Below, piece after piece: positions 28,496-51,626 of a stretch of DNA of 64,000 nt (position 1 is the stretch's first letter; each line of letters starts with the position of its first letter). A program made the position numbers and the translations under genes. The stretch spans positions 2,232,001-2,296,000 of the forward strand of contig NZ_JARRAH010000001.1 of the NCBI RefSeq assembly GCF_030553305.1, given 5' to 3'. The notes beneath the pieces are model-generated. The model did no database searches, had not been told where the DNA came from, and saw only the letters and a list, made by a program, of their open reading frames with translations. Source of the DNA: Halomarina ordinaria. Lineage in GTDB: Archaea; Halobacteriota; Halobacteria; Halobacteriales; Haloarculaceae.

Positions 28496-28520
28496 GAGTG
28501 GGACCGCGCGGATTTGAACC
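28496..28520. repeat. 25-bp exact copy of the tRNA-Pro 3' end
   Basis: GAGTGGGACCGCGCGGATTT plus GAACC is identical to 28607-28631, which covers the T-arm and acceptor 3' end of tRNA-Pro. The copy is in the same orientation, 111 bp downstream of the gene. No other part of the tRNA is present, so this is not a second gene. Confidence 0.9.
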
Positions 28521-28551: not shown

Positions 28552-28577
28552 CGGTTCAAACCGCACGGTGTTCACTC
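28552..28577. repeat. degenerate inverted copy of the tRNA-Pro 3' end
   Basis: CGGTTCAAACCGCACGGTGT and following bases match the tRNA-Pro T-arm/acceptor end in the opposite orientation with a few changes and one indel. It lies between the tRNA and the exact direct copy, so the two can pair as a long imperfect stem-loop. Confidence 0.65.
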
Positions 28578-28609
28578 TCGACTCGTCACGTTCGTTCCTC
28601 GTACAGGAG

Positions 28610-28682
28610 TGGGACCGCGCGGATTTGAACCGCGGTTACAGCGTCCCAAACGCTGAAGGATACCAAGCTACCCCACGGTCCC
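28610..28682 (-). tRNA. tRNA-Pro (anticodon UGG)
   Basis: Full cloverleaf on the minus strand: acceptor GGGACCG pairs CGGTCCC, anticodon arm CAGCG-UUUGGGA-CGCUG gives anticodon UGG, T-arm CGCGG-UUCAAAU-CCGCG, discriminator A. There is no intron and no encoded CCA. It lies 23 bp after the stop of the membrane-protein gene on the same strand and could be co-transcribed with it. Confidence 0.96.
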
Positions 28683-47002: not shown

Positions 47003-50000
47003 ATGGCGACCGACCCGGGGACGTCACCGGACCCCGCAGCCGACGTACGGAGCGACTACGACTACGTCAACGACGACGTCACCCGGCCCGGCCTCGTCTC
47101 GGACCTCGAGGCGCGCGTCGCCGGCGACGTTCGGTTCGACGACTACTCCAGACAGCTGTACGCGACGGACGCGAGCGCCTACCGCGCGCTCCCCGTCGGC
47201 GTCGTCTGCCCGACGTCGACGGCCGACGTCGCGAGCGTCGTGGCGTACTGCGCGCTCCGCGAGATACCCGTCCTCCCGCGCGGCGGCGGGACGAGCCTCG
47301 CGGGGCAGACGGTCAACGAGGCCGTCGTCCTCGACTTCACCCGGTACATGGACGACGTCCTCGACGTCGACCCCGAGGGACGGACCGCCACCGCGCAGGT
47401 CGGCACCTACCTCGGGAGCCTCAACGAGCACCTCGCGCCCCACGACCTGAAGTTCGCGCCCGACCCCGCCTGGGGCGACAAGAGCGCCCTCGGCGGCGCC
47501 ATCGGCAACAACTCGACGGGCGCGCACTCGCTCGTGTACGGCAAGACCGACTACTACATCGAAGAGGTCGAGGCCGTCCTCGCCGACGGCACCGTCACGC
47601 GCTTCGGCGAGGTGTCGGTCGAGGAACTGCGCGAGAAGGCCGACCCCTCCTCGGAGGCGTGGGGTCCCGACGGTCCCGAGAGCGACCTCCTGCCGCGCAT
47701 CTACGAGCAGGCGACCCGGGTCCTCGACGAGGAGGCAGAGGAGGTGCGCGAGCGCTACCCCGACCTGAAGCGCAACGTCTCCGGGTACAACCTCGACATG
47801 CTCGTCGACGAGGCGGCGGGCGAACGCCGTCTGCCCGACGACTCGGGCGTCGACCCCGAGAGCGAACCGGGCCGGGTGAACCTCGCGCGCCTGCTCGCGG
47901 GCAGCGAGGGGACCCTCGCCGTCGTCACCGAGGCGACCGTCGCGCTCGAACCCATCCCGGAGACGAAGTCGGTCGCCCTGCTGACCTACGACTCGGTCAT
48001 CGAGGCGATGGAGGACGTCGCGCCCATCCTCGAACACGGCCCTGCGGCCGTCGAGGTGATGGACGACGTGTTGCTCGACCTCGCGCGCGAGACGGCGGAG
48101 TTCCGCGACGTGGTCGGCCTCCTCCCCGAGGGGACCGACTCGGTGCTCCTCGTGGAGTTCTACGCCGAGGGCGACGCGGACGGCAAGCAGAAGGTCGCGG
48201 ACCTCATCGCCGACCGCGTCCCCGACGGCGTCAGCGAGGTCGACCCGAGCGAGGGGGCGGCGAGCGTCACCGACGACCCGCACACCGCCCGGCAGGCGCT
48301 CGAAGCGCACGACGCCGAGACGCGCTCGAAGTTCTGGAAGATGCGCAAGTCGGGGCTCCCCATCCTCCTCTCGCGCACCTCCGACGCGAAGCACATCGCC
48401 TACATCGAGGACACCGCCATCCCCGCCGAGAACCTCCCGGCGTACGTCGCCGACTTCCAGGCCGTCCTCGAGGCGCACGACACGTTCGCCTCCTACTACG
48501 CTCACGCCGGCCCAGGGGTGCTCCACATCCGCCCGCTCATCAACACGAAGACCGCCGAGGGCGTCGAGACGTTCGAGGCCATCGCCGACGAGGTGACCGA
48601 CCTCGTCGTGAAGTACGGCGGGTCGGTCTCGGGCGAACACGGCGACGGGCGCGCCCGGACCCAGTGGAACCGCAAACTGTACGGCGACCGCCTCTGGCAC
48701 GTCTTCCGTGACCTGAAGTCGGCGTTCGACCCCGACTGGCTGCTCAACCCCGGCAACGTCTGTGGCGACTTCGACATGAGCCGGAACCTCCGGTTCGACC
48801 CCGAGTACGACTTCGAGGCGGGCTTCGACCCGGCGCTCGAGTGGGCCAACGAGAACGGCTTCCAGGGCATGGTCGAACTCTGTCACGGCTGCGCTGGCTG
48901 TCGCGGCGAGCAGTCCACCACCGGCGGGGTGATGTGCCCGACGTTCCGCGCCGCCGAAGAGGAGATTCAATCCACGCGCGGGCGAGCGAACATGCTCCGC
49001 TCGGCGATGAGCGGCGAACTCGACCCCGAGGAGGCGTTCACCGACGAGTTCGTGGACGAGGTGCTCGACCTCTGCATCGGCTGCAAGGGCTGTGCGAAGG
49101 ACTGCCCGAGTGAGGTCGACATGGCGAAGATGAAAGCCGAGGTCACCTACGAGTACAAGCAGCGCAACGGCGCGAGCGTCCGCGACCGGGTGTTCGCCGA
49201 CATCGACCGCCTCTCGGCGCTCGGCAGCGCCTTCGCGCCCGTCTCGAACTGGGCGAGCAAGGTGCCCGGCGCGCGCGTCGCCATGGAGAAGGTGCTCGGC
49301 ATCGCCCGCGAGCGCTCGCTCCCCGAGTTCCACCGCGAGACGTTCGTCGACTGGTTCGAGGCCCGCGGCGGGACGACGGTCCGACGGAAGGAAGCGGACC
49401 GGACGGTCCTGCTGTTCCCCGACACGTACACGAACCACAACCACCCCGAGGCGGGGAAGGCGGCTGTCAGGGTACTGGAGGCGGCGGGTGTCTACGTCCG
49501 CATCCCCGAGGGGACGACCGGCAGCGGGCGACCACCCTACTCGAAGGGCTTCCTCGGGAAGTCCCGCGAGCAGGCCCAGCAGAACGTCGCGGCGCTCGCG
49601 CCCGAAATCCGCGACGGCTGGGAGGTCGTCGTGGTCGAACCGTCCGACGCCGTCATGTTCCAGTCGGACTACCTCGACCTCCTCTCGGGGAGCGACGTCG
49701 AGACGGTCGCCGACCACACCTACGGCGTCATGGAGTACCTCGACACCTACCGCCTCGACGAGGTGCTCGACTTCGGTGCGGTGGGCGAGTCGCTCACCTA
49801 TCACGGTCACTGCCACCAGAAGGCCACGCTGAAGGACCACCACGCGGTGGGCGTCCTGCGCCGTGCCGGGTACGACGTCGACCCGCTCGACTCGACGTGC
49901 TGTGGCATGGCGGGGAGTTTCGGCTACGAGGCCGAACACTACTCGATGAGCAAGGCCATCGGGAGCATCCTCTACGACCAGGTGGACGCGAGTCCGGGTG

Positions 50001-50104
50001 ACGCGGTCACCGCACCGGGCGCGTCCTGCCGGTCGCAACTCGGCGACCACGCGGGCGAGGAACCGCCCCACCCCGTCGAGAAACTCGCCGCCGCGCTGGC
50101 CTGA
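47003..50104 (+). CDS. dld: FAD-linked D-lactate dehydrogenase fused to iron-sulfur/CCG module
   Basis: 1033 residues. An FAD_binding_4 domain (PRGGGTSLAGQTVNEAVVLD; GAIGNNSTGAHSLVYG) and the C-terminal FAD-oxidase domain (HGDGRARTQWNRKLYG) lie in residues ~40-560. Two [4Fe-4S] motifs follow (CHGCAGCRGEQ... and CIGCKGCAKDCPSEVDM, ~630-710), then two CCG domains (HCHQKATLK, STCCGMAGSFGYEAEH). It oxidises D-lactate (or a related 2-hydroxyacid) to pyruvate and passes electrons to the membrane pool. Start ATG at 47003 follows a TATA element at the usual distance. Divergent from the lutC-lutBA operon. Confidence 0.92.
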   Translation: MATDPGTSPDPAADVRSDYDYVNDDVTRPGLVSDLEARVAGDVRFDDYSRQLYATDASAYRALPVGVVCPTSTADVASVVAYCALREIPVLPRGGGTSLAGQTVNEAVVLDFTRYMDDVLDVDPEGRTATAQVGTYLGSLNEHLAPHDLKFAPDPAWGDKSALGGAIGNNSTGAHSLVYGKTDYYIEEVEAVLADGTVTRFGEVSVEELREKADPSSEAWGPDGPESDLLPRIYEQATRVLDEEAEEVRERYPDLKRNVSGYNLDMLVDEAAGERRLPDDSGVDPESEPGRVNLARLLAGSEGTLAVVTEATVALEPIPETKSVALLTYDSVIEAMEDVAPILEHGPAAVEVMDDVLLDLARETAEFRDVVGLLPEGTDSVLLVEFYAEGDADGKQKVADLIADRVPDGVSEVDPSEGAASVTDDPHTARQALEAHDAETRSKFWKMRKSGLPILLSRTSDAKHIAYIEDTAIPAENLPAYVADFQAVLEAHDTFASYYAHAGPGVLHIRPLINTKTAEGVETFEAIADEVTDLVVKYGGSVSGEHGDGRARTQWNRKLYGDRLWHVFRDLKSAFDPDWLLNPGNVCGDFDMSRNLRFDPEYDFEAGFDPALEWANENGFQGMVELCHGCAGCRGEQSTTGGVMCPTFRAAEEEIQSTRGRANMLRSAMSGELDPEEAFTDEFVDEVLDLCIGCKGCAKDCPSEVDMAKMKAEVTYEYKQRNGASVRDRVFADIDRLSALGSAFAPVSNWASKVPGARVAMEKVLGIARERSLPEFHRETFVDWFEARGGTTVRRKEADRTVLLFPDTYTNHNHPEAGKAAVRVLEAAGVYVRIPEGTTGSGRPPYSKGFLGKSREQAQQNVAALAPEIRDGWEVVVVEPSDAVMFQSDYLDLLSGSDVETVADHTYGVMEYLDTYRLDEVLDFGAVGESLTYHGHCHQKATLKDHHAVGVLRRAGYDVDPLDSTCCGMAGSFGYEAEHYSMSKAIGSILYDQVDASPGDAVTAPGASCRSQLGDHAGEEPPHPVEKLAAALA

Positions 50105-50156
50105 GCGCCCCCGAGTCGTAACCTATATCAAATCGCGCGGGGGTAGATGGTGATGT

Positions 50157-50231
50157 GTCCGGGTTGGGGTAGTGGACTATCCTTCAGCCTTGTGGAGGCT
50201 GAGACGCGGGTTCGATTCTCGCACCTGGACC
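50157..50231 (+). tRNA. tRNA-His (anticodon GUG)
   Basis: Acceptor GUCCGGG pairs CCUGGAC, anticodon arm CAGCC-UUGUGGA-GGCUG gives GUG, T-arm GCGGG-UUCGAUU-CUCGC, discriminator C. The genomic base before position 1 is T, so the identity nucleotide G-1 must be added after transcription. No intron. A TATA element (CTATATCAAAT) lies ~25-35 bp upstream. Confidence 0.96.
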
Positions 50232-50271
50232 TCGTTTCTACGCGAACGACAGTGAGCGCTGACGAGTCCCC

Positions 50272-50282
50272 CGAGAATCGAA
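50272..50282. repeat. inverted copy of part of the tRNA-His T-arm
   Basis: CGAGAATCGAA is the exact reverse complement of TTCGATTCTCG in the tRNA-His T-arm (and in the direct copy at 50308). It lies between the tRNA and the direct copy, and can pair with the latter as an 11-bp stem enclosing a second small hairpin (AGCGA...TCGCT). Confidence 0.75.
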
Positions 50283-50307
50283 GTAGCGAGGAGCTTCGCT
50301 CCGAGCG

Positions 50308-50332
50308 GGGTTCGATTCTCGCACCTGGACCT
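50308..50332. repeat. 25-bp exact copy of the tRNA-His 3' end
   Basis: Identical to 50208-50232 (T-arm, acceptor 3' strand, discriminator and one base beyond), exactly 100 bp downstream and in the same orientation. Nothing else of the tRNA is duplicated, so it is not a gene. Confidence 0.9.
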
Positions 50333-50357
50333 TCTTCCGAGCGCTCTCCGGTGAGTG

Positions 50358-50379
50358 GGTGCTCGCGCCAGCGAGCACC
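50358..50379. terminator. 9-bp-stem hairpin between tRNA-His and convergent glycan gene
   Basis: GGTGCTCGC-GCCA-GCGAGCACC, a perfect stem in the gap between converging transcription units. No T-run follows on either side, so its role as a terminator is uncertain; position is the support. Confidence 0.45.
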
Positions 50380-50423
50380 GCGAACGAACGGAGTACGACC
50401 CACGCCGAGGTCCTGCGTCTACT

Positions 50424-51626
50424 CTACTCAGCCGCTTCCTTCGCTTCCACGTCCGCGAGGAGTCGCTCGGAGACGCGCCGCGAGGATTCCCCGTCGACGT
50501 GGTCGAAGAACCGTTCGCGGACCCGTGCGCGCTCCTCGGCGTACCCGTCGTCCTCCAGTGCTTCGGTGAGTTCGGCGCACAACGACTCCGTGTCGGTCGC
50601 CTTGGGGCCGGGGGTGGTGTCGTCGTAGTCGAAGTACAGTTCGCGGTCCTCCGCGAGGTACCGTTCCAGGTCGAACGGGAAGAACACGAGCGGGCGGTCG
50701 AGCAGGAGGAAGTCGAAGTACAGCGAGGAGTAGTCGGTGACGAGGACGTCCGCGTGACGCATCGCGGGGTGGACGTCGAGTTCGGCGGGGAGGTGGACGA
50801 CGTGCTCGTACTCCTCGCCCACCTCGACGGCCGCGTTCGGGTGGAGCTTGAGCAGGACGGTGGCGTCGTGCTCGCGCGCCCACTCGTCCAGCCGTGCGAG
50901 GTCGAGGTGCTCCACGACGCCCCGGCCGCTCTCGCGCCAGGTCGGGGCGTAGAGGACGACGTCGCGGTCGGCGGCGAGCGCCTCGACGTCGGCGAGCGCG
51001 TCGGCGTCGAACCCGATGGTCTCGCCCTCGACCGGCCCGAACAGCGCGTCGTTGCGGGGGTAGCCGAGGGGGAGGATACGCTCCTCGTCGACGTTGAACG
51101 CCGTGGCGAACCGCGAGCGGAGCGCCGCGCTCGTGACGACGACGTACCGGTAGGTGCGGTAGATGAGGAGCGTGCGAATCAGGTTCGCGAGGCCCATCCG
51201 GTGGCGGTAGTAGGAGTCGTCGAGCGAGATGCGCTTCAGCGGGACGCCGTGCCAGAGGTTGACCGGTTCGGAGCCGAGGGCGGCCTCCATCCCCACGTCG
51301 TTGAGCGAGTGGGTGAAGAAGACGTGCCCGGCTCGGAGCGTCGTCAGCCGGCCCCGGAGGCTGTCGCGGTGGTACGCCTCGTAGCCCGCCGCGCGGAGGT
51401 CCGCGAGCAGGTCGTCCCGCCGGGTCATCCACACCGGGCGGACGTCGCTATCGCCGTTGGCGAGGTGGAGGAAGAGGTACTTCGAGTTCTCCGCGAAGCG
51501 GGTCCCGCCGCTGCAGCCGAAGGCCCACAGCCGCTCGTCTCGCGGGACGAGAAACGAGAGGGCGTAGAGGGCGAGCGTGAGCAGTCGGTCGAGGGCGGCC
51601 CGGACGGCGGCCGCGTCAGTCGGCAT
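50424..51626 (-). CDS. CDP-glycerol:poly(glycerophosphate) glycerophosphotransferase-like (TagB/TagF family)
   Basis: 400 residues. A GT-B-like phosphotransferase fold with the family features NLWHGVPLKRISLDDSYYR (acceptor-side His), VVLYAPTWRE near residue 235, LLKLHPNA, and the donor site VLVTDYSSLYFDFLLLDRPL. Bacterial members polymerise teichoic-acid backbones by transferring glycerol-phosphate or ribitol-phosphate from CDP-alcohols. The start lies 11 bp inside the end of the nucleotidyltransferase gene, which could make the CDP-donor. A phosphate-containing surface polymer is implied, but its structure is unknown. There is no signal peptide; it probably acts at the inner membrane face. 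Confidence 0.85.
   Translation of the reverse strand: MPTDAAAVRAALDRLLTLALYALSFLVPRDERLWAFGCSGGTRFAENSKYLFLHLANGDSDVRPVWMTRRDDLLADLRAAGYEAYHRDSLRGRLTTLRAGHVFFTHSLNDVGMEAALGSEPVNLWHGVPLKRISLDDSYYRHRMGLANLIRTLLIYRTYRYVVVTSAALRSRFATAFNVDEERILPLGYPRNDALFGPVEGETIGFDADALADVEALAADRDVVLYAPTWRESGRGVVEHLDLARLDEWAREHDATVLLKLHPNAAVEVGEEYEHVVHLPAELDVHPAMRHADVLVTDYSSLYFDFLLLDRPLVFFPFDLERYLAEDRELYFDYDDTTPGPKATDTESLCAELTEALEDDGYAEERARVRERFFDHVDGESSRRVSERLLADVEAKEAAE

Follow-up and report, generated by a model that had tools for sequence, protein, structure and literature searches.

The stretch of DNA analysed in this study (64 kb, hereafter the window) contains two tRNA-bearing sites according to ARAGORN, namely, tRNA-Pro (TGG) on the minus strand and tRNA-His (GTG) on the plus strand. 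The tRNA-His gene (50158..50231, +) is intact and was identified by ARAGORN and Rfam (RF00005, 46 bits). Its segment from T54 of the T-loop to the 3′ end (50211-50231, +; repeat search), termed D1, is the template of a copy that lies downstream. An imperfect hairpin (hairpin 1; 50231..50266, +) extends from the tRNA 3′ end with CTCGT...ACGAG around GCGAACGACAGTGAGCGC, and was recognised from the sequence and from a class-wide excess of inverted repeats. Further downstream lies an inverted copy (I) of the T-loop and the 3′ strand of the T-stem, CGAGAATCGAA (50272..50282, +), which was found by repeat search and has counterparts in tRNA-specific I arms genome-wide. A direct copy of the tRNA-His 3′ end (D2; 50308..50332, +) forms the 3′ arm of a second hairpin (hairpin 2), and the core of this hairpin between the inverted and direct copies (50283..50310, +; read from the sequence) is a variant of the GTAGCGAG...CGAGCGGGG kind. 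Positions 50208-50232 and 50308-50332 are 25-nt direct copies with 100% identity (25/25) at a spacing of 100, and the 11-nt CGAGAATCGAA is the perfect complement of both 50211-50221 and 50311-50321. The preliminary description, which placed a 25-bp direct copy and an 11-bp inverted copy behind tRNA-His, was exact to the base. The core of this unit is degenerate and does not match the type-A motif. Among 4227 Rfam models compared with positions 49900-50900, the tRNA was the sole match, and the unit corresponded to no known RNA family.

The tRNA-Pro gene (28609..28682, −; ARAGORN) is the second unit-bearing tRNA of the window. Repeat search located a 9-nt inverted copy, TTTGAACCG (28552..28560, −), and a 23-nt direct copy of the tRNA 3′ end, GGTTCAAATCCGCGCGGTCCCAC (28498..28520, −), and the core is a degenerate variant. 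The two tRNAs share one architecture (tRNA, inverted copy, direct copy), as had been proposed. The similar spacing claimed for the two holds only approximately: in 191 tRNA loci with copies, the start of the first copy had a median of 100 nt and an interquartile range of 84-116. Hairpins of the GCGAACGNNGTGAGC kind were rejected as a genome-wide background, with 0 matches in the window at no more than one mismatch.

Copies behind the tRNA genes of this genome and of the order

A scan of the other tRNA genes of the genome had been set beforehand as a test of the layout. It covered 57 tRNA places and compared each 3′ end with the DNA that follows it; 16 or more consecutive nt identical to the gene's own 3′ end, located 20-300 bp downstream, counted as a copy. 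Such copies were present behind 11 of 50 tRNA genes (12 with tRNA-Pro), or about a quarter of the genes tested, compared with 0 of 50 in the upstream control and 10 of 2450 pairings with the downstream region of another tRNA, and chance is therefore excluded. The downstream copies in this genome were 17-24 nt long and lay 66-118 nt from the tRNA. The copy-bearing genes were those of Gly-TCC, Met, Lys-CTT, Arg-CCT, Gly-GCC, Val-TAC, Ser-GGA, Ser-CGA, Leu-TAA, Leu-TAG, His and Pro-TGG; Met and Gly-GCC had two tandem copies each, and approximately ten further tRNAs, including Arg-GCG, had shorter or degenerate copies.

Other features of the tRNA genes in this genome were also observed. A tight cluster of approximately 15 minus-strand tRNA genes (G000:C1:2548364-2550038; L017, L031) was devoid of any unit and may belong to a virus or plasmid. 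Identical complete tRNA-Glu(TTC) genes lay approximately 5.5 kb apart (G000:C1 417559 and 423116; L026, L027, L049), and only one of the two had a unit, which was degenerate. AT-rich, foreign-looking DNA started directly after hairpin 1 of tRNA-Pro-GGG (L045) and directly after the direct copy of Leu-TAG (L056); the end of the latter copy resembled the acceptor of Leu-GAG.

Most units share a core downstream of the inverted copy, GATTYGAA-N-CAGG-GA-GY-G...variable...-RC-GA-CC-G-N-GG, after which the direct copy begins at TTC, that is, at T54 of the T-loop. The motif used for searches, GATTYGAANCAGGGAGCG, was built on the inverted copy. This motif had 18 matches in the genome of the window, most of them directly behind tRNAs, compared with 0 for the reversed pattern. 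With at most one mismatch, it was detected in 165 of 243 genomes and 62 of the 77 genera of the order, and the reversed pattern gave a single match. The motif lay 34-378 bp behind a tRNA of the same strand in 68 of the 69 loci read. Haloarchaeal records from a scan of a genome collection agreed with this distribution, and the carriers included Haloferax, Halorubrum, Halorientalis, Halobellus, Natrinema, Haloarcula, Halomarina and others. Bacterial matches to the motif were attributed to chance, having neither a tRNA end nor a direct copy. A motif-independent view of the tRNA-His locus revealed the unit in approximately half of 30 genomes; within Halomarina, four of eight genomes had the unit at this locus, one of the four being degenerate. 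The earlier suggestion that one process or function lies behind both tRNAs of the window was borne out and proved broader than proposed, given that the layout recurs behind nearly all isoacceptors across the order. The units constitute a well-supported, order-wide haloarchaeal family of very small gene-free repeats directly behind tRNA genes, and nearly all haloarchaeal genera seem to have them at numerous tRNAs.

Boundaries and fold of the units

The copies have constant limits. In 142 well-aligned units, the identity of D2 to the local tRNA was 0.86-1.00 from T54 to the 3′ end, and fell to 0.49 and then 0.33 beyond it. This sharply bounded block of approximately 20-22 bp is what an insertion restoring the tRNA should leave. 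Complementarity between the inverted copy and the tRNA extends over 8-12 nt, covering the T-loop and the 3′ strand of the T-stem (about T54-65), and the inverted copy pairs with the first 8-12 bases of the direct copy, thereby closing hairpin 2. A total of 271 direct copies were found in 316 tRNA loci, and 214 of them had an inverted copy (at most one mismatch in nine) where approximately 3 were expected by estimate; 214 of 271 is not an unbiased frequency because the loci were partly chosen through the motif. A minihelix formed by the D2 acceptor strand and the spacer before I, as hinted by GTCC/GGAC in the His unit, was rejected for want of any excess in 213 units, with a pairing run of at least 5 at 0.103 observed and 0.087 under the null. 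The copied acceptor strand, having no pairing partner, does not serve an RNA structure; restoration of the tRNA upon insertion accounts best for its presence. One-base changes or insertions in the T-loop of the direct copy (TTCACAATCC, TTCAACATCC, TTCGACATTCC) were observed at L178, L196, L199, L207, L225, L161 and L260; they occur in several genera, as though the resemblance of the copy to a T-loop were being removed.

Compensatory base changes, whose lack would together with the lack of copies at other tRNAs have counted against the preliminary description, are present in the units, as are copies at other tRNAs. The Y:R pair of the core was C:G in 90 cases, T:A in 72, C:A in 5 and T:G in 5 (p=8e-36). 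A pattern search that left four core pairs free yielded 135 distinct cores, in which these pairs were TA 63, CG 55 and GC 11; GC 109 and AT 17; GC 106, AT 3 and CG 2; and GC 108, GT 18 and AT 6. Each of the four exceeded all 2000 shuffles, and both sides had changed in 66, 17, 5 and 6 rows, respectively. Related sequences among the 135 cores are not independent, but alternative pairs recur in distant genera. A second core type, exemplified by CCTGCAAGTCGC...CGTCTTGCTCCGG, keeps the stem with different letters (GCAAG/CTTGC, GGAAG/CTTCC, GCCAG/CTGGC and ATCAG/CTGAT). Haloferax larsenii and H. elongans (L197/L214) have an identical tRNA-Ser, and both arms of the elongans unit have changed, from C:G to A:T. 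Judging from paired positions that covary across genera, hairpin 2 is maintained. The first base behind the tRNA is often where hairpin 1 begins; this hairpin is unconstrained in sequence and has perfect arms of up to 15 nt; arms of at least 8 directly after the tRNA were present in 59 of 167 loci, compared with 4 of 167 control windows.

The mismatches and loops of the core bear on the level at which the units operate. In an RNA structure, G.U would be expected to be tolerated much better than A.C. The unit cores contained 29 G.U and 19 A.C, compared with 45 and 0 in the tRNA acceptor stems of the same genomes (p=5e-7), where 12 of the 19 A.C cells fall at one pair beside the tandem G.A and the counts without that pair are G.U 26 and A.C 7. 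Apical loops were triloops in 100 of 116 cases, with GNA in 65, and the GNA loop is exceptionally stable in DNA. The mismatch profile, the GNA triloops and the unpaired acceptor strand favour the DNA level, short of proof, and we infer that the units belong to this level rather than to that of RNA. Type-A cores at many loci have conserved pairs flanked by two to three G.A mismatches, with GNA triloops at most apices; together these features might constitute a DNA shape recognised by a protein. A kink-turn reading of the GA/GA core was rejected on account of the G:C pairs that lie between the tandem G.A and the internal loop.

Turnover and candidate origins of the units

Units accrete in tandem; an array comprises 1-4 copies, and the gap is about 106-134 nt. 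Behind tRNA-His of two related species (L284, L287), units A and B stand in opposite order. Behind tRNA-Ser-GGA of Halorubrum, three hairpin-1 modules occur in free combination with either of two core types, alongside sites that are empty or chimeric. The unit is absent in some close relatives at the orthologous tRNA. Units are approximately 100-150 bp long, and none of those in the loci read contained a gene or cargo; circular or excised forms of a unit were not observed. The concordance of core variants was 65% between tRNAs within genomes and 26% between genomes (p=2e-4), pointing to spread within genomes or to a partner specific to each genome. Homologous recombination between the 20-bp copies, for which no dedicated enzyme is needed, could also account for unit swaps and empty sites.

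We put at about evens the reading in which the units are tRNA-specific, gene-free mini-elements that insert at T54 through a folded hairpin imitating the right half of the T-arm. A unit runs from the tRNA 3′ end (from T54) through hairpin 1, the inverted copy (T54..~65) and the core to the next copy of the 3′ end. Units would be inserted and lost as DNA, presumably by site-specific recombination within the T-loop sequence of tRNA genes, and each would supply its own T54-to-3′-end segment, so that the tRNA would stay whole. The recombining site may be hairpin 2 folded from single-stranded DNA, like the folded attC of integrons, and its I:D2 stem would reproduce the right half of the T-arm in double-stranded form. 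Arrays would afterwards expand, contract and reshuffle through recombination between repeats. The data establish the link to tRNAs, the boundaries, the fold, the arrays and the turnover; the enzyme and the single-strand step are postulated by analogy with integrons. The integron integrase IntI was above the curated cut-off of TIGR02249 in 0 of 117 genomes, and a Y1 (HuH) transposase was found neither in the genome of the window nor in 57 of the 117 genomes; the known hairpin recombinases IntI and Y1_Tnp showed no association and were rejected as the enzymes of the units.

The preliminary description had offered two explanations, namely, hairpins acting in termination or 3′ processing and small elements capturing tRNA ends. 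The latter fits best because of the tandem arrays, modular order, empty sites and lack of cargo; the former is disfavoured by the near parity of A.C with G.U, the absence of units in many species and the unpaired acceptor strand. A function as pre-tRNA 3′-trailer hairpins, for termination, 3′ processing or shielding of the tRNA from its own antisense copy, would agree with the constant position of the units on the tRNA strand, with the strong covariation of the core pairs and with the ability of the inverted copy to pair with the tRNA itself, and hairpin-dependent termination is possible in haloarchaea (PMC7237163). However, the ratio of G.U to A.C is far from that of real RNA stems in the same genomes, many species lack the unit at the orthologous tRNA, the copied acceptor strand is left unpaired, and the number, order and core type of units vary freely; we judge such a function improbable. 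Slippage and template switching at tRNA 3′ ends, followed by quasipalindrome correction that keeps the arms complementary and by homologous recombination that generates arrays, swaps and losses, would create inverted and direct copies with no dedicated enzyme. The compensatory changes and the near-equal tolerance of A.C and G.U fit such correction at the DNA level, repeat-mediated deletion could produce the chimeric hairpin-1 junctions and the empty sites, and the IntI and Y1 searches provided no recombinase for the units. Nevertheless, slippage at each tRNA cannot create a shared core, since the same NCAGGGAGYG...RCGACCGNGG stands behind tRNAs of different sequence across the order, and the constant, exact boundaries at T54 and the 3′ end also speak against it. 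We consider this origin rather unlikely, albeit the strongest of the alternatives.

Finally, the units might be attL/attR scars of tRNA-targeting proviruses or plasmids that have lost the body of the element. Duplication of tRNA 3′ ends by haloarchaeal integrative elements is known (PMC3119063, PMC7911831, PMC7921747), including prophage-related duplications in Haloquadratum (PMC3119063). However, the att site of pleolipovirus/SNJ2 comprises 13-14 bp of the tRNA 3′ end without the T-loop (PMC8371274), whereas the block copied in the units reaches T54. At L191, L232 and L137, a provirus sits between the tRNA and the unit, with its own tRNA-end repeat preceding the unit, and units are therefore not virus ends. 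The exact motif had only three matches in 2.9 million viral contigs, none beside a tRNA or with tRNA sequence, and the units were rejected as viral attP on this basis. The integrated regions of this genome also lack the motif: no distal motif copy was found behind Pro-GGG, Glu-TTC, Val-CAC, Asp, Ala-GGC, Lys-TTT or a plasmid tRNA-Glu, and the units were likewise rejected as ends of full integrated elements in this genome. Remnants of 100 bp with a common core at dozens of tRNAs would be unexpected from such scars, which we regard as a very improbable source.

Returning to insertion through a folded hairpin, we tentatively propose, with somewhat less than even confidence, that the units represent a new class of minimal mobile archaeal DNA, that is, cargo-free cassettes of ~100 nt that would enter tRNA genes through folded single-stranded hairpins. 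A stem imitating half of the T-arm of its target would then explain how one family with a common core reaches dozens of tRNA targets, and the question is raised of how one element family acquires arms matching each target. If hairpin recombination is true, it would be a second invention of site-specific recombination on a folded single strand besides integrons and would further explain why recombination concentrates at tRNA 3′ ends. If the units instead prove to be RNA elements, they would form a large unrecognised class of tRNA trailer structures.

Comparison with known systems

The tyrT locus of Escherichia coli contains 178-bp repeats, each with 19 bp of the tRNA-Tyr 3′ end (rtT RNA). These repeats resemble the haloarchaeal units in being tandem, in lying directly 3′ of a tRNA and in each copying its 3′ end. 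However, tyrT is a single locus with one tRNA, whereas the haloarchaeal units occur behind nearly all isoacceptors of an entire order, and we know of no inverted T-arm copy or shared core in the tyrT repeats. Haloferax gibbonsii LR2-5 has 11 partial tRNAs, several of them beside a full copy (PMC7921747), and the main text of that study mentions them with no structure, inverted copy, family or explanation given; the units may account for some partial-tRNA calls in haloarchaeal annotation. Full-text searches of an open-access library yielded no description of the unit family beyond such passing "partial tRNAs", and the novelty of the family, judged from open-access papers, is provisional. The family looks like an undescribed one of minimal elements dedicated to tRNA ends.

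SNJ2/pleolipovirus and other archaeal elements with tyrosine integrases also insert at tRNA 3′ ends and restore the tRNA (PMC8371274, PMC7911831). These elements are kilobase-sized, carry integrase genes and share no hairpin, whereas the units are gene-free, and proviruses of the SNJ2 type displace units. REP/BIME palindromes with RAYT (Y1) transposases and MITEs are likewise tiny, non-coding, palindromic repeats dispersed in genomes. In contrast to them, the units are strictly bound to tRNAs and have target-specific arms, and the genome of the window has no Y1_Tnp protein.

The attC arrays of integrons, which occur in archaea too as CALINs (PMC9668308), consist of tandem units that each terminate in a folded hairpin, with conserved boxes that pair, with mismatches and with an apex that varies, as do the haloarchaeal units, and the G|TTC boundary of the unit stem resembles the G|TT crossover. 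However, the haloarchaeal units have neither IntI nor gene cargo, and their arms copy the local tRNA instead of following a fixed consensus. By analogy, the units appear to work like integron attC arrays but are not members of them.
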